Origin: Micavibrio sp.
Lineage (GTDB): Bacteria; Pseudomonadota; Alphaproteobacteria; Micavibrionales; Micavibrionaceae
Direction: 5' to 3'
Assembly: GCA_012960155.1 (NCBI GenBank)
Contig: DUBU01000038.1
Location: 17,932-51,976, forward strand
DNA length: 34,045 nucleotides
Positions 16,753 through 28,361 of this stretch are shown here, piece by piece. Position 1 is the first letter of the stretch, and each line of letters opens with the position of its first letter. Position numbers and translations under genes: made by a program. The notes below the pieces were generated by a model, which was given only the letters and a program-made list of their open reading frames with translations, searched no databases and was not told where the DNA came from.

Positions 16753-17994
16753 ATGGATATCGATACAGTTTCATTATTACTCGGCGCCGCGGCAGGCGTT
16801 TTAGTGACGGGCGGCGTTCTCGGCACATTATTGCTGCGCGCGGAATCTTCACGTGCCGCGATGGCCAAAGATCTTGAGCATGAGCGCGCCGGCCGTGAAG
16901 AGCTAGGCAATCTGTTTTCCCTGACCGCACAAGAAGCGCTTGAAAAAAACAACGAGCAGTTCCTGCAGCGCTTTTCAGAGCTGGCGCAGGAGAAAATGGT
17001 ACAGGCGAAAAACAACAGCGCCCATGACCTGGAAAAGCGTCAGCTGGCCATTAACGAGCTGATCTCCCCGATCAAGAAGCAGCTTGAGATGATGGGTAGC
17101 GCACTGGAACAAGTTAAAGGTACAGACATGGCGCTGCGTGATGATCTGCAGCGCCTTGGCAAAGAAACCGCAAAACTTGTCGGCGCGCTGAAAGACCCTG
17201 CCGCGCAAGGTCGTTGGGGTGAATTTATTCTGGAAGGTATTCTTGATAAATCAGGCCTGATGAAAGGCGTTCACTACGAAACGCAGGTGTCTATTCAGAG
17301 CGGCGATAGCCGTATGCGCCCTGATGCGGTCATTCATATGCATGACGGATTTCATATCGTCGTTGATGCCAAAGCACCGCTAAACGAATTTGCCGAGAAG
17401 ATGGCTGATAATATCAGCGCCGAAGAGCTGCAAGCCCTGATGCAGAACCTTGCCAAACAGGTGCGGGAGCATATCAAGGCGCTAGGTAAAAAGAATTACT
17501 GGGAAACCATGGAGAGCGCGGATTTTACCGTGATGTTCCTGCCTTCCGAGCATCTATTTAGTGTGGCGCTACAAGCAGACCCTGATCTGGTCGATTTCGC
17601 TGCGAAAAACAATATCGTCATCGCCTCACCGACCTTGCTGCTCTCGCTGCTACGCGTCGTAGGTCTTAGCTGGCGTCAGGTCGAACTTGCCAAAAACGCA
17701 CAAGAGATTTCCGTGCGCGGGGCGGAGCTATATAAACGCCTGACAGCCTTTGGTAGTCATCTTGAAAAAGTCGGTAAGGGCATTAACTCTGCCATGACCA
17801 GCTATAATCAGGCGATTGGCTCACTTGATCGTATGGTCATGCCGGCCGCGCGAAAGCTATCTGAATTGCAAAACAGCAAAGAAGAAATGCCGTCGCTGGA
17901 GCAGCTGGAAAATATGCCGCGTAAACTTGAAGCTGATGATTTTTCAGGCAGCGATGATAAAGAGCAAGATTCCAAGAAAGCAGCCAATGCTTGA
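16753..17994 (+). CDS. rmuC: DNA recombination protein RmuC
   Basis: RmuC-family protein, implicated in limiting inversions and in processing DNA ends; it has a PD-(D/E)xK-like nuclease fold. An N-terminal membrane helix (about 5-27, TVSLLLGAAAGVLVTGGVLG) is followed by a long coiled coil, then the conserved core: GRWGEFILEGILDKSGLMKG, SRMRPDAVIHMHDGFHIVVD and the DAKAPLNEF stretch that holds the putative catalytic residues. Later come FLPSEHLFSVAL and SPTLLLSLLRVVGLSWRQ. It has 413 residues, normal for the family. The C-terminus is acidic. It lies 31 bases before def. Confidence 0.95.
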   Translation: MDIDTVSLLLGAAAGVLVTGGVLGTLLLRAESSRAAMAKDLEHERAGREELGNLFSLTAQEALEKNNEQFLQRFSELAQEKMVQAKNNSAHDLEKRQLAINELISPIKKQLEMMGSALEQVKGTDMALRDDLQRLGKETAKLVGALKDPAAQGRWGEFILEGILDKSGLMKGVHYETQVSIQSGDSRMRPDAVIHMHDGFHIVVDAKAPLNEFAEKMADNISAEELQALMQNLAKQVREHIKALGKKNYWETMESADFTVMFLPSEHLFSVALQADPDLVDFAAKNNIVIASPTLLLSLLRVVGLSWRQVELAKNAQEISVRGAELYKRLTAFGSHLEKVGKGINSAMTSYNQAIGSLDRMVMPAARKLSELQNSKEEMPSLEQLENMPRKLEADDFSGSDDKEQDSKKAANA

Positions 17995-18025
17995 CGCTCG
18001 CCAAGGTTAAGGATATTTCAATAGC

Positions 18026-18556
18026 ATGAGTAAGTTACCGATTATCAATGTTCCCGATGCTGTCCTGAAACAGGTTTCCGATCCTGTCGGGCAAGTGAAT
18101 GATATTGTCCGTAAACAGATGGATGATATGCTGGAAACCATGTATGACGCCCCCGGCATTGGCCTTGCTGCCAATCAGGTGGCGATTACCAACCGTGTGC
18201 TTGTGATGGATATTGATTATCGCGATGATGAGAACGGCGCACAGAAAAACCCGATCTGCATGGCTAATCCCGAGATTATCTGGAAATCAGAAGATATCAG
18301 CGTCATGGAAGAAGGCTGTCTGTCTATTCCCGGCCAGTTTGCCGAGGTTAAACGCCCTGCTTCCGTGACTGTCAAATATCTGGATTATGATGGTAAGGAA
18401 GCCGAATTAACGGCTGAAGGCTTGCTATCACATTGCGTGCAGCATGAGATTGACCATCTGGATGGCGTATTATTCGTTGATTATCTGTCAAAGCTGAAGC
18501 GCGATATGATGATCAAGCGCGTCATTAAAATGAATAAAGGCCAAGAGGCACTTTAA
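18026..18556 (+). CDS. def: Peptide deformylase
   Basis: Metalloenzyme that removes the formyl group from new polypeptides. All three motifs are present: GIGLAANQ at 44-51, EEGCLS at 95-100 with the metal-binding Cys98, and HEIDH at 140-144 with His140, Glu141 and His144. Length 176 residues is typical. AAGGATA lies upstream of the ATG. The gene is six bases from fmt, the usual pairing, since one gene removes the formyl group that the other adds. Confidence 0.97.
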   Translation: MSKLPIINVPDAVLKQVSDPVGQVNDIVRKQMDDMLETMYDAPGIGLAANQVAITNRVLVMDIDYRDDENGAQKNPICMANPEIIWKSEDISVMEEGCLSIPGQFAEVKRPASVTVKYLDYDGKEAELTAEGLLSHCVQHEIDHLDGVLFVDYLSKLKRDMMIKRVIKMNKGQEAL

Positions 18557-18562
18557 GGATAT

Positions 18563-19522
18563 ATGAGTATGGCTGGCGAGACGAAAAAACTTCGCGTTGC
18601 ATTTATGGGCACACCCGATTTTGCTGTCCCTGCCTTGCAACACCTCATCGATCATGAGGAATTTGATGTTGTGGCTGTCTACAGTCAGCCACCCCGCCCG
18701 AAAGGCCGCGGCCATCAGGTGCAGCCCTCCCCTGTTCATGAGCTTGCTGCCCGTCACGATATTCCCGTGCACACGCCAAAATCCTTGAAAAAAGATCCCG
18801 CAGCCCGTGCGCAATTTACCGAGCTAGAGCTGGACGTTGCGATCGTTGCTGCCTACGGTCTGATCTTGCCACTTGAAGTTTTAGAGGCGCCTAAATATGG
18901 CTGCCTTAATATCCATGCTTCGCTCTTGCCGCGCTGGCGCGGCGCAGCGCCTATTCAATATGCGATCTGGGCAGGTGATGCCGAAAGCGGCGTGACTATC
19001 ATGCAAATGGAAGAAGGCCTTGATACAGGACCGATGATCTTAAAGCGCGCTGTTACCATTCATCCTCATACCACAGCGCAAAGCCTTCATGACGAGCTGT
19101 CAGCTATGGGCGGCGCCCTTTGTATCGAAGCGCTGGAAAAGCTTTTACGTGACGGTAAGCTAGAGGCCGAAGTCCAAGATGATAGTCTGAGCTGCTATGC
19201 GCCTATGCTTAAAAAAGAAGACGGTCATGTGGAATGGTCAGATACAGCAGACGCCATTGACCGCCAGATCCGTGCGCTTAATCCGTGGCCTGGCGTATGG
19301 GCAACACTTGATGGCAAGCGTCTGAAAATCCATAAGGCCGAGCTAGTCAGTGAACATTTCACAGAGCCGCCGGGCACTATTATTGACCATATTGGTCATG
19401 TGGCCTGCGGTCAGGATACGGGCCTGCGCTTGCTGGAGATCCAACCTGAAAACGCCCGTCGAATGGATATCGCGGGCGCTTATAATGGTAATTATATTGA
19501 CGTTGATAAAAAGTTCGCCTGA
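18563..19522 (+). CDS. fmt: Methionyl-tRNA formyltransferase
   Basis: Formylates the initiator Met-tRNA using 10-formyl-tetrahydrofolate. The N-terminal domain shows VAFMGTPDFAVPAL at 12-25, the catalytic Asn116 and His118 in LNIHASLLPRWRGAAP, and Asp154 in EGLDTGPM. The C-terminal OB-like domain has the typical ALNPWPGVWA. Length 319 is normal. AAGGAT precedes two possible starts, ATG 18563 and ATG 18569; either would fit. It is the last gene of the rmuC-def-fmt unit, converging on icmT with two bases between the stops. Confidence 0.96.
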   Translation: MSMAGETKKLRVAFMGTPDFAVPALQHLIDHEEFDVVAVYSQPPRPKGRGHQVQPSPVHELAARHDIPVHTPKSLKKDPAARAQFTELELDVAIVAAYGLILPLEVLEAPKYGCLNIHASLLPRWRGAAPIQYAIWAGDAESGVTIMQMEEGLDTGPMILKRAVTIHPHTTAQSLHDELSAMGGALCIEALEKLLRDGKLEAEVQDDSLSCYAPMLKKEDGHVEWSDTADAIDRQIRALNPWPGVWATLDGKRLKIHKAELVSEHFTEPPGTIIDHIGHVACGQDTGLRLLEIQPENARRMDIAGAYNGNYIDVDKKFA

Positions 19523-19524
19523 TA

Positions 19525-19827
19525 CTAGCCGAAATCTTTAAGCGTTCTAAACGCATAGCGGTAATGCCCGGGACGGAAATCGCCACCCAGCCACAATCTA
19601 ATCGCACGCAATGACGCCGGAAATGTCAGGCCATAACGTTCCAGAATGTAGAAGAATACCGTGATCAGCAATGTGATGATCAGTGAGATCGGACGCAAAT
19701 AAACAAGCAATACGAAGAACGGAAACGCCGCACGCGCATCAAGGTTAAAGAAGCGAACCGGACGCATTGTATTACGCCAGTGCCAATTCTCCTTCTCGAC
19801 GGCGGTATCGTCAGCAGCTGAAGCCAT
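19525..19827 (-). CDS. icmT: IcmT/TraK family protein of a type IVB secretion system
   Basis: Small inner-membrane component of Dot/Icm-like secretion systems. The 100 residues contain the family pattern: NWHWRNTMRPVRFFNLDARA at about 14-33, then hydrophobic stretches (AAFPFFVLLVYL; SLIITLLITVFFYILERYG) that would form two membrane passages, then FPASLRAIRLWLGG. AAAGGAGAT precedes the ATG. It follows dotB after 108 bases; a short 4-bp stem with a T-run (minus strand, near 19907-19930) and AT-rich DNA in the gap suggest partial termination and perhaps a separate promoter. The order dotD, dotC, dotB, icmT equals traH, traI, traJ, traK of IncI plasmids. Confidence 0.85.
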   Translation of the reverse strand: MASAADDTAVEKENWHWRNTMRPVRFFNLDARAAFPFFVLLVYLRPISLIITLLITVFFYILERYGLTFPASLRAIRLWLGGDFRPGHYRYAFRTLKDFG

Positions 19828-19935
19828 CGAAATCTCCTTTCTGTTTACCAGCCAAAATCAGAGCTCACTAAAGCTCCAACACTCTATAATATAAGATATT
19901 TATTAATAAAAAACTACGCCTGATATGGCGAAAAC

Positions 19936-21099
19936 TTAAGAGCCTGAAGAAACAGAGGAAGCAAGCATCAAATACCAGCGACGCTCGATATGGCCGCCTT
20001 CAAAGGCAACGCGGGCGGATTGTGACATTGTTTGGCCGTAGTTCGGAATCGCACGTTGGATATGGGCACCCCATTCCTTGAAATCCATATCGAGCATCTT
20101 TTCACGGAAGTCTTCGGGGAAGACCATCCATTCTCGAATACCCATACGGCCGCCTTTAATTTTAGGCACCAGCGCCTGTGTCACAACCATACGCATTGTT
20201 TCCATCAATGCATAAGCACGTTCGGCGCGCTCGTTACTGTCAAAAGATGAAATCATACGCTGGATCGTGGCCGCCACACCGGTTGTGTGCGTTGTTGTAT
20301 ATACGGCGTGACCTGTTTGCGCCGCCTCAATAGCAGCAGAGATCGTCTCGCGGTCACGCGCCTCACCAACCAGAATAATTTCAGGCTTACGACGCAAGGC
20401 GTTACGAACGCCGTGGGCAAAGCTTGGCAAATGTCGTGGAATTTCTGTCTGGGATACCAGAGAACGCGGGCTTTCGATCGCATCATACACATATTCGATC
20501 GGCGCTTCGTAGGTCAGCATTTTACCACAGCCATGAGAGCGTTCGAGTAGCATACGGTTACCAGCGGCCAGCAATGTTGTTTTACCGGAACCTGTCGGCC
20601 CTGTAATCACCACCATACCCTGACGCGGCGCCCAGTGATCAATCACGTGCTCCTCGATATTCAGGTCTTTCATGGTTGGCGGCTCGTTGGGCAGCGCACG
20701 CATTGTAATCTGCGCCGCATCACGGCCTTTGGATAGAATCGCAGTAATGTTCACCCTGAAACGGATACGTGTGTAACGATCAGGACGGACTTCGTAAGAC
20801 AAATCGAGGTCATTACCACCCGCCAGACGGGCCTGCGCTTCAGGACCATAGATTTTATGAAGAGCAGCCGCCATATCAGCCGCGTCCAGGGAACGATATG
20901 TTCCCGGATATAACACGCCATCAAGTTCTTGATAAATCGGCCTGTCTGTCTGTAAGGTAATATCGGAAGCGCCCTGTTTAACGGACCATAGCAAGAAAGG
21001 ATCGATTGATTCTTGCGTAAAACGCCCTGGCTCATCAGGCCAGGTCTGCGCTTTATTTTCCTTACCTTTAAGAAGACTTACCGGCTTGCGGGCTGCCAT
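19936..21099 (-). CDS. dotB: DotB/TraJ, PilT-like secretion ATPase of a type IVB system
   Basis: Hexameric ATPase of the PilT/VirB11 superfamily that powers Dot/Icm-type transport at the inner face of the inner membrane. The N-terminal PAS-like domain includes SIDPFLLWSVKQGASDITLQ. Walker A is GPTGSGKT at 167-174, the Asp box lies in TYEAPIEYVYD, Walker B is EIILVGEARD at 240-249, and the His box is QTGHAVYTTTHT at 261-272. Length 387 is close to Legionella DotB. The start overlaps the end of dotC by 22 bases. A PilT of type IV pili is the alternative, but the dotC and dotD neighbours decide the matter. Confidence 0.93.
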   Translation of the reverse strand: MAARKPVSLLKGKENKAQTWPDEPGRFTQESIDPFLLWSVKQGASDITLQTDRPIYQELDGVLYPGTYRSLDAADMAAALHKIYGPEAQARLAGGNDLDLSYEVRPDRYTRIRFRVNITAILSKGRDAAQITMRALPNEPPTMKDLNIEEHVIDHWAPRQGMVVITGPTGSGKTTLLAAGNRMLLERSHGCGKMLTYEAPIEYVYDAIESPRSLVSQTEIPRHLPSFAHGVRNALRRKPEIILVGEARDRETISAAIEAAQTGHAVYTTTHTTGVAATIQRMISSFDSNERAERAYALMETMRMVVTQALVPKIKGGRMGIREWMVFPEDFREKMLDMDFKEWGAHIQRAIPNYGQTMSQSARVAFEGGHIERRWYLMLASSVSSGS

Positions 21100-21929
21100 C
21101 TTTCCGTTCCTGTTGTCAGTGAAGGCTTGCCAGTAATTTGGACCGCTCTGTCACCGATACGCATACGGCTACCGCCACCTGTTACGCCGCGATCAAACTG
21201 GATCGCATAAGGCGGTGTTACCATGCCTTGAGCCAATAACATACGGTAGCGAACCATGCCATGATAGTGAGCAGTCATCTGGTTCAAGTCTTGTTCAAAA
21301 ATCTCATTGGCTTGTTCTACGCCCAAGTCCCAACCTTCGCGGATCCATTCTTTCCAACGCTCGCGCTCTTCTTCGTTTTCTGGGCGAAGAATATCAGGTG
21401 GTGGTGTCACGCTGCCCCATGAACGCTCCATGTAATTGCGCCAGCTGCGCGGTGCACTCACGATCTTGGCTTGTGCGCTGATATCGTAAACACGATCAGC
21501 TACGGCCGCTTGTTGACCGCTTGCGTCAATAATCAAAGCATTCACTGATTCAGAAATAACAGGAGGCTCAATCAGAAGACCTGACGGCGCCGGAATCAAA
21601 AGCTGACGGAAGTCGAAGACACGATCCATATATGTGGCACGCGCATCAAGTTCTTGTCTGATTTCATATGTACGGTGCGCCAGACCACCGCGTGCCCCGT
21701 AAGAGAGCGCTGCTTCGCGCTGTGCTTCCAGACGGATATCGAATGGCATGCCTGTTTCTTCATTGATAACAGTATTCAGCTTTTCGATGTTTTCCAGATC
21801 TTCGCGAACTTCAGGCCTAGGACCGTCAACTTGCGCGAAAGCAATATTGGCGCTTGTCAGCGGTGCCTGCATCAAGAACACAGTTGCCGCAACAGCCAGA
21901 AATTTATTCAAGCGGCGGTTAACTTTCAT
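21078..21929 (-). CDS. dotC: DotC/TraI, outer-membrane core component of a type IVB system
   Basis: DotC-family protein. In Legionella, DotC and DotD bring DotH to the outer membrane. The conserved regions are visible: a GARGGLAHRTYEIRQELDAR stretch, FDFRQLLIPAPSGLLIEPPV, and RSWRNYMERSWGSVTPPPD followed by WKEWIREGWDLGVEQANEIF. The N-terminus is a Sec signal peptide (about 1-32, LNKFLAVAATVFLMQAPLTS then NIAFA before QVDG). There is no cysteine at the cleavage site, so this DotC would not be lipidated, unlike the Legionella protein. It overlaps dotD by one base and dotB by 22, a tightly coupled trio. Confidence 0.9.
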   Translation of the reverse strand: MKVNRRLNKFLAVAATVFLMQAPLTSANIAFAQVDGPRPEVREDLENIEKLNTVINEETGMPFDIRLEAQREAALSYGARGGLAHRTYEIRQELDARATYMDRVFDFRQLLIPAPSGLLIEPPVISESVNALIIDASGQQAAVADRVYDISAQAKIVSAPRSWRNYMERSWGSVTPPPDILRPENEEERERWKEWIREGWDLGVEQANEIFEQDLNQMTAHYHGMVRYRMLLAQGMVTPPYAIQFDRGVTGGGSRMRIGDRAVQITGKPSLTTGTERWQPASR

Positions 21930-22441
21930 TAGTTAGACTCCCCGATACCAGTAGACGGTGCGTAGTGAATTTCAACCATCTTGCGACGGCCATCAACACG
22001 GACATCACCGCGAACACCCAGCTGCAGGCCGATGCTACGCAGAACATCAATCACTGGCTTGTTATCAACGTCAATTGAAACGACTACAGGCACAGGCGGC
22101 GGCATACCGATTGTCTGGAAGGCATAACCTGCGCGGTTTGCCAGCTTGACCGCGATTGGCTCAACGGGGCCAACCCAGTTTACGCTGATCGCGCGGCGCA
22201 GTTCAGGCGGCGCGTTCTCGATCGGGCTGACAGAAACTTCAGGAGAGCGATGCTGCTCAACCGCTGCAAGTGTTTCAAGAGCAACTGATGCCCTATCCGC
22301 TGCTTGCGCCAGCATGGCAGAAACCTTATCAGGAGATGCCACAAGCTGTGGATTCTCACCTTTGATGACTTCATTTGATGTACACGCTGATACGACAGTT
22401 AACAGCGAGAAGCATAACAGGAATTTTTTAAAGCGGCGCAT
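21929..22441 (-). CDS. dotD: DotD/TraH lipoprotein of a type IVB system
   Basis: Outer-membrane lipoprotein of the Dot core complex. The lipobox LLTVVSAC ends at Cys20. The C-terminal half (about 85-165) has the secretin N0-like fold expected of DotD: SVNWVGPVEPIAVKLANRAG, YAFQTIGMPPPVPVVVSIDV, and DVLRSIGLQLGVRGDVRVDG. The length is 170 residues. The ribosome site is weak. It is preceded by a 172-base spacer that is AT-rich, so a promoter for dotDCB may lie there. The stop overlaps the dotC start (TAATG). Confidence 0.88.
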   Translation of the reverse strand: MRRFKKFLLCFSLLTVVSACTSNEVIKGENPQLVASPDKVSAMLAQAADRASVALETLAAVEQHRSPEVSVSPIENAPPELRRAISVNWVGPVEPIAVKLANRAGYAFQTIGMPPPVPVVVSIDVDNKPVIDVLRSIGLQLGVRGDVRVDGRRKMVEIHYAPSTGIGESN

Positions 22442-22613
22442 ATTTAAAACCCTAACAGACCGTTTGTATTAGTAGGAGTAAACCTTATTGTGAACCGTGA
22501 CTTATAAAAAGCACCTACTAAATTAACCCGAGTAAAAATTCATAACAAGGCATCATTCCACACGAATTTAAAATATCACCAGACTTTCCTAAAAAATAGG
22601 GGATATTTTTTAC

Positions 22614-23027
22614 TTATCGTGTCGTTCTGAGTAACCCACTTCTATCCATTGAAGAAATAACTTTGTATTTATAGACATCACCGAACTTCGGTGTGCGTGA
22701 ATGGTAATGCGCAATTGCTTGCGCCAAATCCTGCGTTTCATCAATGTGACCGCGTAAAATCCAGGCCGATACACCAACATTGGTGCAAGGATCATCACGA
22801 ACCCATTTACGCGCTGTGGCTTCGCTTACGCCCCACTGACGGGATAATTCAGGCATCCAGATCGTGTTGATCTGCATTGGTCCTAAATCAAAGCTGCCAT
22901 TATCATTTGGCCCGACTTCCTGACCGACCTGACCGCCCTCGACCTGATAAATGCCCAGCAAAACAGCAGGCGGAATGCTGTATGTTTGAGATGCCAGAAA
23001 AAAGCAGGCTGCTAATATTTTACCCAT
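22614..23027 (-). CDS. VirB1-like lytic transglycosylase (SLT fold)
   Basis: Probable peptidoglycan-cleaving enzyme that opens the wall for the secretion channel. The first 15 residues are hydrophobic and could be a signal peptide. Glu30 in IYQVEGG is in the place of the catalytic acid; GPMQIN at 49-54 and the NVGVSAWILR helix (about 94-103) are SLT motifs, followed by AIAHYHSRTP. It has 137 residues, the small size usual for conjugation-linked transglycosylases such as RP4 TrbN. AAGGGTG precedes the ATG. Just beyond the stop, an AT-only inverted repeat AAAAAATA-GGGGA-TATTTTTT (22591-22611) could slow polymerase between this gene and dotD. Confidence 0.82.
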   Translation of the reverse strand: MGKILAACFFLASQTYSIPPAVLLGIYQVEGGQVGQEVGPNDNGSFDLGPMQINTIWMPELSRQWGVSEATARKWVRDDPCTNVGVSAWILRGHIDETQDLAQAIAHYHSRTPKFGDVYKYKVISSMDRSGLLRTTR

Positions 23028-23063
23028 GGGTCACACCCTTTATAATTTCTCGACGCAATTCCA

Positions 23064-24179
23064 TTACGACTTCGTGAAGAACGACATCGGGTTATATGAA
23101 CCCTCGTCTTCGCCGTCACCATCTTCATCATCATTCTGATACTGATAATCATCGATTGCAACTGGTTCTGCAACAACATCACGCGGCGCCTCTTTTGCAG
23201 GCGAGTCGCCCGAAGCGAACATAGACATTGGCGAAGCGCCTGTATCAGGGGCCGCCATCGGCGCTGTTTCTGGTGCCGGCGGAGGTGCCATCGGCGCTTG
23301 TGCCACAGGCTCCGGCGCAGATTGCAGCACAGGTGCCGCGGGCTGGGCTTGTGGCTTGGTCACAGACGCACCGCCCAAAATAGATTTGTTATGGCGGCTG
23401 CCTGCCAGAATTTCGATCATGGCGGCTCTGGTATCAAACGCCTTCCAGACACCATCCATCGGCATCATGCCGCCGCCCTCTTCGGACATACGGGCACGCT
23501 CCATGTCATCCATAGACATCAGACGAATTTTTTCCGCGCGGTGGCACTCTACGTAGATATCAACGAGAGATTGCAATACACCCAGCGCATAAATTTTATC
23601 ATCTTTATTCTGGCCTGCGATTTCAGTAGCGCGCGCCACAAGAATATCACCGACTTCCTGCACCAGCTTTGTATCTTGTCTGCCGAATGAGAAAGAAGCG
23701 ATCGCATTAACGAGCGGGCCCATAATATTTACGTAGCGAATACTGATCTGGTCTTCATCCTGCAAGACATCGCCTGCACGAATATTTTCAAGGCGCGCCG
23801 TATTCTCGCCGACAGGCGCGAAACTATCTGCAAATGTCAGCGCCGCTTCCATCGCTTTGATCATGCGTTTTACGTCATTATCGGATGGCGGTTTGCCTGT
23901 TTGTCTATAGAAAGATGCAATGACAGGCGTGACAACACCTGCCAGCGCCAATCGGCCTGCGTCAGCGCTCTCGGAGCTTGCGGTTAAATCCATCGAAGAT
24001 GCGAGAGCAATCGCCATATGAACAGATTTATTCAGCAATATTGCCAGATTTTCTGCATCTTCTTGCAGGATAATATCGGCACCGTCGCGCTTGCGGGATG
24101 CCACATCAGCAATGGCAGCCATCAAGGGGGCTGCCAGTTTATCAAGTATCTGTGTTTGAAAGGCCGAACGTGCGGACAT
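23064..24179 (-). CDS. Unrecognised 371-residue protein inside the Dot/Icm-like block
   Basis: No family recognised. Residues 1 to about 255 are helical and largely polar (SARSAFQTQILDKLAAPLMA; NLAILLNKSVHMAIALASSM), with no signal peptide, so the protein is probably cytoplasmic. Residues about 265-330 are a Pro/Ala/Gln-rich linker with repeated APxP steps, and the end is strongly acidic (DDYQYQNDDEDGDGEDEGSY) before a short NPMSFFTKS. The linker and acidic tail look like a flexible arm for binding a partner. It lies between the DsbC-like gene (25 bases) and the transglycosylase gene (36 bases), all on one strand, so a role in the secretion system is a fair inference. The start has no good ribosome site. 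Confidence 0.65.
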   Translation of the reverse strand: MSARSAFQTQILDKLAAPLMAAIADVASRKRDGADIILQEDAENLAILLNKSVHMAIALASSMDLTASSESADAGRLALAGVVTPVIASFYRQTGKPPSDNDVKRMIKAMEAALTFADSFAPVGENTARLENIRAGDVLQDEDQISIRYVNIMGPLVNAIASFSFGRQDTKLVQEVGDILVARATEIAGQNKDDKIYALGVLQSLVDIYVECHRAEKIRLMSMDDMERARMSEEGGGMMPMDGVWKAFDTRAAMIEILAGSRHNKSILGGASVTKPQAQPAAPVLQSAPEPVAQAPMAPPPAPETAPMAAPDTGASPMSMFASGDSPAKEAPRDVVAEPVAIDDYQYQNDDEDGDGEDEGSYNPMSFFTKS

Positions 24180-24204
24180 CAGGGGAACACTCTATTAACG
24201 TTAC

Positions 24205-25065
24205 TTACGATCCATTCAGATCGCTGATGAGCTGAGCAAGATCCTGTGCCCGGCCCTGGATAATCTTCACCTCGCCATTCTTGGCGCGATATACAGAAAA
24301 CGGTGTAACGTTTACCTTCCATGACTGCATAATTGCAAGGTTTCTTTCAACGCCCTGCTCATTAATATCAGCAGAGATCGGCAAAGCTGTCTCATCGCCT
24401 GCCAAATGTTCGTACCAGCGTCTTTGCGGATTAGGCACAGCCAGCAAGAATGCAGCTTGTGCTTTTGTATCGGCACGGAAGCCAACAGGGATCATACGCA
24501 CCTGAACAAGGCCGTTCTCGATGTAGTTTGCGCGTAGGTCATTCATGAACGCGTGACAGTATGGGCATTGCGGATCCATAAAGCTGTACAGGACCGGCGC
24601 GCCGTCCCTACCCAGTTTGATCCAGTTTGCACTTTCAACATCATCATATAGCTGCTCTGAGGGTGTTTTGAATTCCTGATTTACAGGCTCGGCTGCGGTC
24701 GCGCCGCCACTTAACGCCTGTCTTTCGGCTTCTTCTTCAGCGAAGAATGACAATGTTTCAGCGCCGCTCTGGTCTTGCAGTTCTTTGACCTGACGCAGTG
24801 TTACCATTTTACCGTCACGGTCGAACAGAACACCCATTACAAAAGCCTGACCGTCTTTGGTCACATAGAAATACTGTTCCTGACCGCCTTTAATCGCGAT
24901 CCAGCCATCAAGGCCGTTTTGCTGTCCCAAGTAACGCAGCTGCGCACCTTCATCTTTCAAGTTTTGGATTGGCGGCGGCAGAGGCGGTGTGCCTTGCGCC
25001 AATGCAGGTGTTGCCTGCAGTAGGAAGAGTGCCAGAAAGAGAAATTTCACAAAGTGGTGTCGCAT
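24205..25065 (-). CDS. DsbC/DsbG-like thiol-disulfide protein
   Basis: Periplasmic thioredoxin-fold protein. A signal peptide covers residues 1-23 (ending ATPALA). Residues about 30-110 form an N-terminal region like the dimerisation domain of DsbC, and the thioredoxin domain follows with the active site CPYC at 167-170 in SFMDPQCPYCHAF. The cis-Pro is in NVTPFSVYR. Length 286. DsbC itself has CGYC; CPYC fits the DsbA/DsbG variants, so oxidase or isomerase cannot be told apart. AAAGGATGC precedes the ATG. It is the first gene of the block leading to dotDCB; R64-type plasmids carry a comparable protein (TrbB), which suggests service to cysteine-bearing secretion parts. Confidence 0.8.
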   Translation of the reverse strand: MRHHFVKFLFLALFLLQATPALAQGTPPLPPPIQNLKDEGAQLRYLGQQNGLDGWIAIKGGQEQYFYVTKDGQAFVMGVLFDRDGKMVTLRQVKELQDQSGAETLSFFAEEEAERQALSGGATAAEPVNQEFKTPSEQLYDDVESANWIKLGRDGAPVLYSFMDPQCPYCHAFMNDLRANYIENGLVQVRMIPVGFRADTKAQAAFLLAVPNPQRRWYEHLAGDETALPISADINEQGVERNLAIMQSWKVNVTPFSVYRAKNGEVKIIQGRAQDLAQLISDLNGS

Positions 25066-25109
25066 AATTGCATCCTTTTGTTTTTCGGCCCCATATTAAG
25101 GATCGCCGC

Positions 25110-26327
25110 TTAAATAAACAAGATTAAAACGCCTGTGTAGCCGTATAGTCGATGATTAGAGATCTCGCCATTGGCGTAAAACCCGACTAAGGGTATATCC
25201 CCGATCACTTCCTGTACGAGCCCCAGCTCGCCGTTCGTTTCGTCGCCGAAATCAGACATTGTCCGTGCTACGCAGGAAATATAGATCGCCCCGCGCGGCG
25301 CAAACTTGCCTTGATCGGCTATGACACGCTGTCGGATATCCAGCAAGGCACGCGACAGATCAGCTTTGACTGTTTCATCATCGCGGTGCACGAACATCAT
25401 CCGCTCACCGTTTTGTACTTGCTGGGCAACAGCTATCCATCCGTTTTCGGGATCAATGCCGATTGCGTTACGTACTAAATAATCTTTTGTGTCTGCGCCC
25501 GACACAGGGAAGGCCACATGTACCTCTCCCTGAAAAGCATCCAGCTCACCATTTTCGGCCAGCATGATATCGGCAGATTCAAATGAAACGTCGTTGCCTG
25601 ACTTTAATGTCGCCATGGCGCGCAGATCATCAGCAAAAACCTCAAAGGCCGGACGACCATCAAGCTCCATGATGATATTATCTTCAGATTTGGTAATGAT
25701 ATGCGTATCACCAATCGGCGCGCAGCCTTGCGAGACAACTGTTGCCACCGGCACATCCTGCGATAATGCCAGCCCTGAAATACCGCCCTGCATCAGATCA
25801 TCGGCAATATGAAGATGCGCCGAGCGGGATGAAGACATCCCTCCGACAACAAATCCTTCGGATATCTGGCCGAGCTGGCTAAGAATAGACATGGGATCCA
25901 TCTCTGAGATCGGATCACCGTGAACAATCAACGTTGCGGCTTCGTGTTCATCTGAAAAGCCTTCCAGTATCTTGCGTGCGGCATCGATACTGAAATCGAC
26001 GGCAGGGAATACCGCAAAGCTGTCTTTGGGAAATCTGCCAATCATGGCGCTGATAGCCGGGGCATCAATACAGGAAACGCCTGTCCCGCAAACGCCAAGG
26101 CCCACAGCCCCGATCCAGTGATCAACACCTGTCACCGTACGGAATAATCCCAAGATGCTCTGCGCGTGCTCGACCAGTGTGTCGGTCATGTATATAAAAC
26201 CGATGTTAAAGCCGTCGCCTTCCGTGCGTGCTTTTTCAAGGTCTTCCAGCACCGCGCGTGACGTATCACGCCAGTCGGTTCCGACGGCAAAGCTGCTGGC
26301 AAATATTTGTGAAGTATGTAAAGGCAT
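25110..26327 (-). CDS. FIST N- and C-domain sensory protein
   Basis: Protein made of the FIST N domain (about 1-200) and the FIST C domain (about 215-395), a pair predicted to bind small ligands, perhaps amino acids, and usually linked to signal transduction. The N part shows IGAVGLGVCGTG and SEGFVVGGMSSSR. The C part ends with the hallmark IPLVGFYANGEISNHRLYGY followed by TGVLILFI. Length 405. There is no kinase or cyclase domain attached and no signalling gene beside it. No ribosome site is visible before the ATG. It lies 44 bases upstream of the DsbC-like gene on the same strand, so it could be the first gene of that unit. Confidence 0.82.
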   Translation of the reverse strand: MPLHTSQIFASSFAVGTDWRDTSRAVLEDLEKARTEGDGFNIGFIYMTDTLVEHAQSILGLFRTVTGVDHWIGAVGLGVCGTGVSCIDAPAISAMIGRFPKDSFAVFPAVDFSIDAARKILEGFSDEHEAATLIVHGDPISEMDPMSILSQLGQISEGFVVGGMSSSRSAHLHIADDLMQGGISGLALSQDVPVATVVSQGCAPIGDTHIITKSEDNIIMELDGRPAFEVFADDLRAMATLKSGNDVSFESADIMLAENGELDAFQGEVHVAFPVSGADTKDYLVRNAIGIDPENGWIAVAQQVQNGERMMFVHRDDETVKADLSRALLDIRQRVIADQGKFAPRGAIYISCVARTMSDFGDETNGELGLVQEVIGDIPLVGFYANGEISNHRLYGYTGVLILFI

Positions 26328-26509
26328 TCGGATCTTGGTTGCGTATAAAAACGAAAGTATAACGTGGTTTATTGTACGGGAACAGGATTAACATAGCGTT
26401 GAATTCGCATATGCAAAAATTGGCACTGGAAAATCGCGATAAATGCGCGTAAAAAGTTGTCTGCAATTCAAATAAGAACAAGAAATTTTGCAACGGTAAG
26501 GAGATACAC

Positions 26510-26947
26510 ATGCAAACATTTAAACTTGGATTACTGGTTGGCACAGCCGTTATCGGTCTGACATTCGCATCACAGTACGGTTACGCCAATGATCACGCAG
26601 AAGCTGCCGAAGCGCAGGTTGCTGTTGAAGCAGAAGTACAGGCTGAAACTGACGCTACACTGACAGAACAAGCTGCTGATATGGCCGAAGAGTCAGCCGA
26701 AGCAACGAGCGAAGCTGTTGAAGACGCTGCCGAGGCGACTGCAGAAACTGCAGAAGATGCCGTTGAAGCCACAGTTGAAACAGACGTCAATGTAGAGACA
26801 GAAGTAGAAGCTGAGGGCGATGCCGAAGTTTCTGGCGAGACTACAGAAAAGCTGGAAGTTACTGAAGAAGACGAGCCAGTGGAATTCGAAGGCGACAAGA
26901 AAGACCCGGCTGCTGAAGGTAAGCGCTGGTGGGGTCGTCCTTACTAA
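26510..26947 (+). CDS. Secreted acidic Ala/Glu-rich low-complexity protein
   Basis: No family recognised. A signal peptide covers about residues 1-26 (QTFKLGLLVGTAVIGLTFAS to YGYA before NDHAEAAEA). The rest, about 119 residues, is almost wholly Ala, Glu, Thr, Val and Asp (AEATSEAVEDAAEATAETAE), with short imperfect repeats of the type E-A-T-x-E-x-A/V-E-D. It ends in a basic aromatic patch, GKRWWGRPY. AAGGAG precedes the ATG and a strong terminator follows at 26969-26995, so this is a well-defined single gene. It is probably periplasmic or surface-exposed and disordered or helical. The long open frame on the opposite strand is a by-product of this bias. Confidence 0.72.
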   Translation: MQTFKLGLLVGTAVIGLTFASQYGYANDHAEAAEAQVAVEAEVQAETDATLTEQAADMAEESAEATSEAVEDAAEATAETAEDAVEATVETDVNVETEVEAEGDAEVSGETTEKLEVTEEDEPVEFEGDKKDPAAEGKRWWGRPY

Positions 26948-26968
26948 TCGGTAAGCGATAGAATTAGA

Positions 26969-26995
26969 AACGGGGCTATATGGCCCCGTTTTTTT
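26969..26995 (+). terminator. Rho-independent terminator of the 26510 gene
   Basis: Stem AACGGGGC (26969-26976), loop TATATG, GCCCCGTT (26983-26990), then a run of T to 26995. The T-run overlaps the stop codon of the convergent 26994-27662 gene. Confidence 0.85.
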
Positions 26996-27662
26996 AAGCG
27001 ATTTTTAAAGCCATGCCTTTGGCTTCAAGCTTTTCCTGCGCTTCTGCATCCAAATCACCAAAAGGTCTATATTCCCAGGCCTTGATGTCGGCCTCGAAAT
27101 CCTTGTGATAGCAATATGCGCCTGTTTCCAGATTATAAGCCGCCGAGGTAATCGGTGCGCGCGTGAATATCTCGGGCGGTGTTACAGGTTTTTCAGTAAA
27201 AGTCACGTCAACCAAATGCCCCTTGCCTTCTACCATAACGATTGCGGTTACCTGCATACAGACACCTATATTGGTGCCGGCATGAATTTTCATGTTGTCC
27301 GCATCCCATGACACGTCAGGATTATAGGGCATCATGCGTCCCATATTGTATTCGATAGCCTCATCGATTTCCTGACGCTCTTTGTAACTATAAGCTTCCA
27401 TGCCACGCTGTTTCTGAACTTTCTGCGCGAGCTTTACCATCTCGGGATTACAAATCATCATATCAGTGTCGCGCGGCGCTTCGCCCTGATAGAGAGAATT
27501 AAAAATACCGCCGAATACAAATCCATTACTGCATTCACGCCCCATTTTTGCTTCTGCGCCTGTAATAGCATCATAGAGCTGCCCTACCAAGGCAGGCATT
27601 TTTATACCGGCCGGCGGCTGATCACTAGTGATAAAGTCATTGAATTCATGAAGAAGCTGCAT
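26994..27662 (-). CDS. Putative nucleotidyltransferase-fold protein, acidic triad intact
   Basis: Not a family I can name, but it carries the pattern of the polymerase-beta-like nucleotidyltransferase superfamily. FVFGG (Gly51, Gly52) is followed after 12 residues by DTD (Asp65, Asp67), and a third acid sits on a strand in HLVDVTF (Asp152). The segment after it, FTRAPITSAAYNLETG, resembles the (R)RDFTINAxxYD region of CCA-adding enzymes and poly(A) polymerases. It has 222 residues and no signal peptide, and lacks the RNA-binding domains of CCA enzymes. AAAGAG precedes the ATG. The gene lies 30 bases downstream of an equally long paralogue that has lost the acids. An antitoxin/toxin or small-molecule nucleotidyltransferase role is open. 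Confidence 0.6.
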   Translation of the reverse strand: MQLLHEFNDFITSDQPPAGIKMPALVGQLYDAITGAEAKMGRECSNGFVFGGIFNSLYQGEAPRDTDMMICNPEMVKLAQKVQKQRGMEAYSYKERQEIDEAIEYNMGRMMPYNPDVSWDADNMKIHAGTNIGVCMQVTAIVMVEGKGHLVDVTFTEKPVTPPEIFTRAPITSAAYNLETGAYCYHKDFEADIKAWEYRPFGDLDAEAQEKLEAKGMALKIA

Positions 27663-27692
27663 TGGATACTCTTTGGTTATGACTCTTATACT

Positions 27693-28361
27693 TTACTTGA
27701 TAACTCTTAACCCAATCTTAGCACCGCGTTCGGCTGCTGTTTCGGGTTTGTCAGCAAAACCTTCAGGATTGCGTTGATATAAATTTCTTTCTGTGTCGCG
27801 ATGGTAATGAAACACAGCGCGTTCAAAATCATAAACAATCGCACTGGTCGGACGCTGTGCGTGCATGCGGATAATCTCGACAGGGCTTGGCATCACATCG
27901 GAAATCGTGAAATCAATATTCTGGATACAGCCGTAATTACCGCTGGCTTGGGCATGGGGCGTCGGTATGCCGTTTGACTTGGCATAAAATAAATCCGATA
28001 GATTAAGATCAAACGGATAGCCCTGCATCGCGACCCAATGCGCGACGCTGTCTACAATCTCGGTATTTTCCTTGATATCGTGATAGCTGGACGCTTCGGA
28101 AAATTTAGCCTCTAAAGCTATGGCCAGCTTTTCAGCCAGTTCGGGATAGTGAAGACCCATGCGCATATAAAAAGGATGTATGCCTGCGCGCAAATCTTCG
28201 AACATAGGGCCTGTCAGATAGCCGCCCGCCATGCCTTTTGCACCTTCGGATGCTTTGATCTCATCATAAATTTCGTGAAATAGCGCAGGAATCTGTATCC
28301 CTGCAGGGGACGTAGCGGAGGTGATAATATCGCTTTCGCGTATTGTAACGCTATCGGTCAT
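27693..28361 (-). CDS. Degenerate paralogue of the 26994-27662 protein (acidic pair lost)
   Basis: 222 residues, the same length as its neighbour and colinear with it: DIITSATSPAGIQIPAL matches DFITSDQPPAGIKMPAL, and GYLTGPMF matches GFVFGGIF at the same positions. At the aligned catalytic sites Asp65 and Asp67 are Tyr65 and Arg67, and the second Gly of GG is Pro52. The late acid is kept (NIDFTI, Asp150), as is the following TSAIVYDFERAVFHYH region. If the neighbour is a nucleotidyltransferase, this is a pseudoenzyme, perhaps a regulatory partner. AAGGAG precedes the ATG, and the pair is probably one operon with this gene first. The overall similarity between the two is modest, so the duplication is old. 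Confidence 0.6.
   Translation of the reverse strand: MTDSVTIRESDIITSATSPAGIQIPALFHEIYDEIKASEGAKGMAGGYLTGPMFEDLRAGIHPFYMRMGLHYPELAEKLAIALEAKFSEASSYHDIKENTEIVDSVAHWVAMQGYPFDLNLSDLFYAKSNGIPTPHAQASGNYGCIQNIDFTISDVMPSPVEIIRMHAQRPTSAIVYDFERAVFHYHRDTERNLYQRNPEGFADKPETAAERGAKIGLRVIK

Follow-up and report, generated by a model that had tools for sequence, protein, structure and literature searches.

A chromosomal Dot/Icm-type module in Micavibrio sp. as half of a secretion system that may act on other bacteria

Is a short run of dot genes in a bacterial chromosome a captured plasmid segment, a reduced module or one part of a larger secretion machine, and on what would such a machine act? These questions are raised by a stretch of Micavibrio sp. 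DNA (GenBank assembly GCA_012960155.1, contig DUBU01000038.1, positions 17,932 to 51,976), 34,045 nucleotides long and called the window here. Seven minus-strand genes in it, four of them encoding DotD, DotC, DotB and IcmT homologues, form a module of a type IVB secretion system (T4BSS, Dot/Icm-type). This module is read here, with reasonable though by no means full confidence, as half of a chromosomal, vertically inherited T4BSS, a protein injector whose contact target is most likely a bacterium (prey or rival).

The original prediction saw no further Dot genes beside the module, which holds for the examined positions 17000-28000, and allowed that they might lie elsewhere or that the module might have a reduced function. 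The genome (2.58 Mb in 39 contigs, 99.6% complete) was examined for DotA, B, C, D, F, G, H, I, L, M and IcmT and for a DotO-type ATPase, and further parts were found on contigs C3, C14 and C24. Contig C3 has the gene order DotI, DotH, DotG, DotF, X142, a DotO-like ATPase of 1018 amino acids and X170. It encodes the only DotH in the genome (PF12293, 266 bits) and the only full DotI match (PF11393, 229 bits); DotG (NF033900, 154 bits) and DotF (NF038218, 40 bits) are distant matches. The ATPase has relatives on 3767 plasmid records, its only NCBIfam match is VirB4 (E-value: 0.026), and it matches no Pfam family and no PDB entry; it is called DotO-like from its size, place and plasmid relatives only. 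Contig C14 carries three tandem DotA/TraY genes (924, 951 and 889 amino acids; L024:8787-17084; TIGR04346, 275 bits). Contig C24 carries DotL (838 amino acids), near argS and gyrB, which matches the solved Legionella DotL 6sz9 over residues 7-661 (504 bits). DotM was not found in this assembly by profile search; contig C24 starts inside the gene directly upstream of DotL, and the order DotM-X180-DotL occurs in G024, G026, G047 and G051. DotG, DotH and DotO were the components on which the original prediction made a working T4BSS depend, and DotG and DotH lie on C3, together with the DotO-like ATPase. A reduced function is thus not supported, and a reduced or orphan module is ruled out by the other parts present in the genome. 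Judged by its predicted gene content, this is a near-complete T4BSS rather than a reduced one. A second, distant DotI/IcmL-like protein (30 bits) is encoded away from the other dot genes, at L015:8714-9445.

The half in the window consists of seven intact open reading frames (ORFs) that fill exactly positions 19525-25065 in the predicted minus-strand order DsbX, Unk371, SLT/TrbN-like protein, DotD, DotC, DotB and IcmT, and the profile matches agree. These genes, two motifs and the adjoining gene are as follows (aa, amino acids).

19525..19827, minus strand: IcmT/TraK homologue, 100 aa (NCBIfam NF038220, 88 bits, cut-off 40)
19936..21099, minus strand: DotB traffic ATPase, 387 aa (TIGR02524, 395 bits; Walker A GPTGSGKT)
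21078..21929, minus strand: DotC, outer-membrane complex protein, 283 aa (PF16932, 273 bits, cut-off 26)
21929..22441, minus strand: DotD lipoprotein, 170 aa (PF16816, 127 bits, cut-off 27; lipobox VSAC)
22614..23027, minus strand: VirB1/TrbN-like lytic transglycosylase (SLT), 137 aa (PF01464, 31 bits, cut-off 21)
23064..24179, minus strand: Unk371, proposed coupling adaptor, 371 aa (conserved N-terminal part, Pro-rich linker, motif-bearing tail)
23076..23093 (G000:C38:41007-41024), minus strand: C-terminal NPMSFF motif of Unk371, common to DotL tails
23217..23234, minus strand: second motif copy in Unk371, SPMSMF
24205..25065, minus strand: DsbX, DsbG/DsbC-like thiol isomerase, 286 aa (NF008657, 140 bits, cut-off 124; active site CPYC)
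25110..26327, minus strand: FIST-domain sensor gene (PF08495 and PF10442), which adjoins DsbX on its upstream side in several relatives and is of uncertain membership

The DotB score is below the strict cut-off of 463 and is the highest among the ATPase families listed (TraJ TIGR02525, 240 bits; PilT, 222 bits). DotD scores 102 bits against the NCBIfam DotD profile (cut-off 140), and the SLT protein scores 85 bits against TrbN (NF010463; E-value: 6e-24; cut-off 246). Unk371 has no significant match among Pfam and NCBIfam profiles. The overlaps seen earlier are present, with 1 base shared by DotC and DotD and 22 bases by DotB and DotC. The module is flanked by def-fmt on one side, fmt having been predicted there, and by the FIST-domain gene on the other; fmt (stop at 19522) and icmT (stop at 19525) converge. 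The GC content of the module (50.3%) is close to that of the remaining window (48.5%), so composition shows no sign of foreign origin.

The suggestion that the block is a fixed chromosomal system is borne out by its distribution. In a survey confined to the order (Micavibrionales), DotH was found in 132 of 142 genomes, with one match each, and in 93 of the 98 genomes with at least 90% completeness and at most 5% contamination. Among 58 relatives, 37 from the same family (G000-G036) and 21 from other families, DotC was found in 53, DotL in 57, and DotA and DotM in 56 each. A tree built from DotB+DotC for 25 genomes, including only four outside the family, follows taxonomy: the family stands apart from those four, and the genus has a support of 0.993. 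Order-wide presence, a tree in step with taxonomy and core-gene neighbours indicate that the core system is not a mobile element, and a plasmid or recent mobile element is ruled out for it. A chromosomal, vertically inherited, order-wide system is supported by these sequence comparisons; it would be an example of a Dot/Icm-type system long established as a fixed organ throughout a bacterial order. At least three DotA match rows were obtained in 36 of the 37 genomes of the family, where rows may be pieces of one gene, and a single row in 9 of the 21 genomes from other families. Counts of whole DotA genes, confined to this genome and G024, gave three each.

Likeness to plasmids was also part of the original prediction, which noted the order of plasmid genes traH-I-J-K. 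The order DotD-DotC-ATPase-IcmT is indeed annotated on plasmids pND6-2 and p2-AD3 (IncI-type and related); pND6-2 also has a TcpQ-family gene near icmT, and p2-AD3 has transglycosylase, DotM-like and DotL genes nearby. Together with relatives of DotL and of the DotO-like ATPase on about 4,000 plasmid records each, these likenesses favour a conjugation machine of IncI type that is lodged in the chromosome and still moves DNA between cells. The check for mobilisation proteins, however, found no PF03432 relaxase, the one relaxase family searched, in this genome or in G024, and such a relaxase occurs in 21 of 58 relatives as against 57 of 58 for DotL. This sporadic relaxase beside near-universal DotL and DotM suggests a cargo of protein and not of plasmid DNA and, with the core-gene neighbours and the tree in step with taxonomy, makes conjugation quite unlikely. 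Unlike the IncI-type plasmids, the system also includes Unk371 and a set of Cys paralogues (described below), with no plasmid relative found for Unk371 or for the one paralogue searched, and four plasmid stretches were read without the NPMxFF motif in any of their gene calls. An organ for DNA uptake, DNA release or surface adhesion built from T4BSS parts is very improbable. Noncanonical type IV secretion systems with such uses exist, according to the available text of one source (PMC12857230), but DotL in 57 and DotM in 56 of 58 relatives fit substrate export better.

A protein injector, the reading preferred here, would be encoded in part by a locus that is split in this genome. Gene order around DotC was compared in 25 genomes. 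In 24 of them DotD-DotC-DotB is present and the proteins are close to full length (DotB of G028 is cut by a contig end), and DsbX-Unk371-SLT lies directly upstream of DotD in 18. G049 has Unk371-SLT with no DsbX call, G007 and G051 have DsbX-SLT with no Unk371 call, and G029, G033, G036 and G001 show DotD onward only. The three upstream genes had been described as accessory; they are present as described, but in view of the 18 genomes they belong to the conserved locus. In nine genomes (G024, G026, G080, G010, G008, G032, G033, G047 and G037) a single contig carries both halves within a span of about 40 kb, usually in the order DsbX-Unk371-SLT-DotD-C-B-IcmT-TcpQ, flgL-flgK, Cys paralogues and DotI-H-G-F onward. 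The pair flgK-flgL separates the halves in seven of the nine and has no call in G033 or G037. The break in this genome is between IcmT and the TcpQ gene, which remained on C3, as seen in the assembly at the fmt/icmT junction; the contig ends of G002, of the same genus, agree with the unbroken order. In G001, also of this genus, flgL is followed by DotB without an intervening call for IcmT or TcpQ, and DotH is ~40 kb off, so that the layouts of G001 and of this genome indicate more than one rearrangement of the region. In G080, taken to be Micavibrio aeruginosavorus ARL-13, a single 20-kb stretch (L107) holds DotF-G-H-I, two Cys paralogues, flgK, flgL, the TcpQ gene, IcmT, DotB, DotC, DotD, SLT, Unk371 and DsbX. 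G024, its congener, was the genome searched for DotL, DotA, DotM and the DotO-like gene, and has all four. The module may be split in G020 too, where an Unk371 orthologue is on contig C4 (L137, G020:C4:245302-245457) and DotC is on contig C15. The flgK and flgL genes are embedded in the T4BSS locus across genera (L013:1697-5195, L050, L051, L085, L091, L095, L107 and L110).

What Unk371 contributes is suggested by its tail. In an alignment of 18 sequences (A2), a conserved N-terminal part and a Pro-rich linker are followed by one or two copies, near the C-terminus, of a short motif, NPMxFF, searched as [NGSDT]PM[SGATN][FMY]F. The motif is found in 18 of 18 Unk371 orthologues and in 12 of 26 DotL tails (averages in shuffled tails: 0.003 and 0.0). 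Three further DotL tails have near-variants: NPLGMF in this genome, SPLGFF and APMSFF in others. Among 1027 gene calls, from loci of which some overlap, the motif is in no gene other than those for Unk371 and DotL. At the DNA level it occurs at 34 places in 16 genomes, compared with 6 for a reversed control pattern. Of the 30 places within loci, 15 are in Unk371, 5 are in DotL, one is in mid-protein in a 578-aa ORF (EPMAFF) and nine are in frames of at most 69 aa or ahead of a start codon; of the four places outside the loci, one (G024:C1:2424276) has coordinates within Unk371. Where tested, a role of NPMxFF as an effector signal in general is not supported, and the DNA pattern points to Unk371 and DotL. 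Neighbourhood does not explain the sharing, as DotL is more than 400 kb away from the module in G024. The shared motif suggests a common partner, and from it we infer for Unk371 the role of a cytoplasmic adaptor that acts at the coupling complex. The tail of Legionella DotL binds IcmS/IcmW, and the tail is the part that differs here. Only two noise-level matches to Unk371 (E-value: 8) were found in plasmid records, and its best PDB match (E-value: 0.0047), a designed protein, was taken as chance. An AlphaFold model of Unk371 (two sequences) is poor (mean pLDDT 43), with mostly helices followed by an unstructured tail. Through the motif, the idea of a novel type of DotL adaptor can be tested directly.

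Other parts are specific to the lineage. Each of the 27 distinct DotL loci read encodes X180 (157-277 aa by first start) directly upstream of DotL. In 25 of the 27 it ends in SAD[DEAQ][FYL][LF], a motif that is absent from all other genes in a set of 977 gene calls. Two X180 members have no Pfam match and only weak NCBIfam matches below cut-off. X180 is a single-pass protein (examples at L102:11854-12435 and L026:1-300). Five tandem genes beside dotI (L013:7158-14170) encode the secreted Cys paralogues of 437-495 aa, of which relatives have one to five per locus. Their two invariant cysteines (alignment A1) make DsbX a sensible partner. A role like that of IcmX/VirB5 is speculation. A profile built from 37 of 48 Cys-paralogue hits had no PDB match; one paralogue had no plasmid relative, and the same profile found no relative in viral contigs.

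Taken together with known systems, these components most likely form an injector that delivers protein on contact, with other bacteria as the probable target. In the mechanism envisaged, the VirB1/TrbN-like enzyme would open the cell wall for assembly, and DsbX would form disulfides in periplasmic parts, perhaps in the Cys paralogues beside DotI. Unk371, whose docking motif recurs in the DotL tail, would help to load substrates onto DotL, and DotB and the DotO-like ATPase would drive export through the DotG/DotH channel. The cargo, probably protein, may then enter a target cell in contact, most likely a bacterium; the nature of cargo and target is less sure than the other roles.

Two things suggest the target: how ARL-13 lives and what the kib system of Pseudomonas putida IsoF does. 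ARL-13, of the same family, lives on bacteria according to the available text of its genome paper, in which evidence for type III or type IV secretion is said to be absent (PMC3189940). As described in the accessible part of its report, kib is a chromosomal T4BSS that kills bacteria, and inactivation of a hypothetical-TrbN-DotD stretch stops the killing (PMC9519443). That order is of the same kind as Unk371-SLT-DotD, a likeness by gene order, and provides a precedent for bacterial killing. The same text presents kib as a rare, recently acquired island (PMC9519443), whereas the system described here is order-wide and inherited. That the injector instead acts, like the one of Legionella, on eukaryotic microbes such as protists or algae is unlikely. 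Eukaryotic cells are the targets of the best-known Dot/Icm systems, and the DotL found here is clearly related to that of Legionella; a family member living on bacteria (PMC3189940) and the existence of a bacteria-killing T4BSS (PMC9519443), again by what is available of both texts, argue against such targets while being compatible with them. The Legionella system shares homologues of DotA, B, C, D, F, G, H, I, L, M and IcmT, a putative DotO-like ATPase and the alignment of DotL over residues 7-661. Here, in contrast, the genes are spread over several chromosomal loci, one with flgK/flgL inside it, DotG has 421 aa against a profile of 1008 positions, the DotL tail beyond residue 661 differs, often with NPMxFF, Unk371, X180 and the Cys paralogues are extra, and there are three DotA.

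The injector aimed at bacteria may be how Micavibrio relatives attack prey. Through the core locus in G080 it becomes a named candidate for the action of an epibiotic predator on its prey, and no report of the system was found in the open-access literature (PMC library). A wider proposal, which is tentative, is that the order ancestrally had a Dot/Icm-type injector aimed at bacteria and that this is the missing weapon of epibiotic predation. Its new coupling module would consist of Unk371 with the NPMxFF peptide of the DotL tail, and of X180 with SADxFL between DotM and DotL; multiple DotA and Cys paralogues would vary the channel or tip.

Several points weigh against this account. DotG, DotF and DotM score below strict NCBIfam cut-offs. 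DotL matches the DotL of a Bosea megaplasmid with 478 bits (361 bits for that of a Roseomonas plasmid), and so is about equally near to a plasmid relative as to Legionella. DotC is missing from G017, G031, G041, G045 and G050, DotA from G026 and G052, DotL from G052, DotM from G000 (this genome) and G052, and DotH from ten genomes, among them G031, G034 and G092; G052 thus has neither DotL, DotM nor DotA, and G031 neither DotC nor DotH. As G026 (one contig), G050 (four) and G034 (about ten) are not badly broken, real losses or gaps exist. The motif is in only 12 of 26 DotL tails, the DotL of this genome having the variant NPLGMF, and eleven tails, G047 and G051 included, have neither motif nor variant. 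IcmX was not found by one indirect test, the Cys-paralogue profile against PDB. Predation is documented for few members, so that the order-wide reading is an extrapolation, and no effector, immunity protein or translocation was found. The available text of an RNA-seq account of ARL-13 names no dot gene.

At the X142 place, the proteins of two relatives have weak TraQ matches (36 and 31 bits, cut-off 80), and PDB searches with X142 gave chance matches only; an X142-like frame also runs past the end of stretch L013. In the window, two adjoining minus-strand genes at 26994-27662 and 27693-28361 encode proteins of 222 aa each, the first without a Pfam family. Contig C31 (L017:1-7572) carries VirB10 and VirD4 in a VirB-type (type IVA) gene cluster distinct from the T4BSS.

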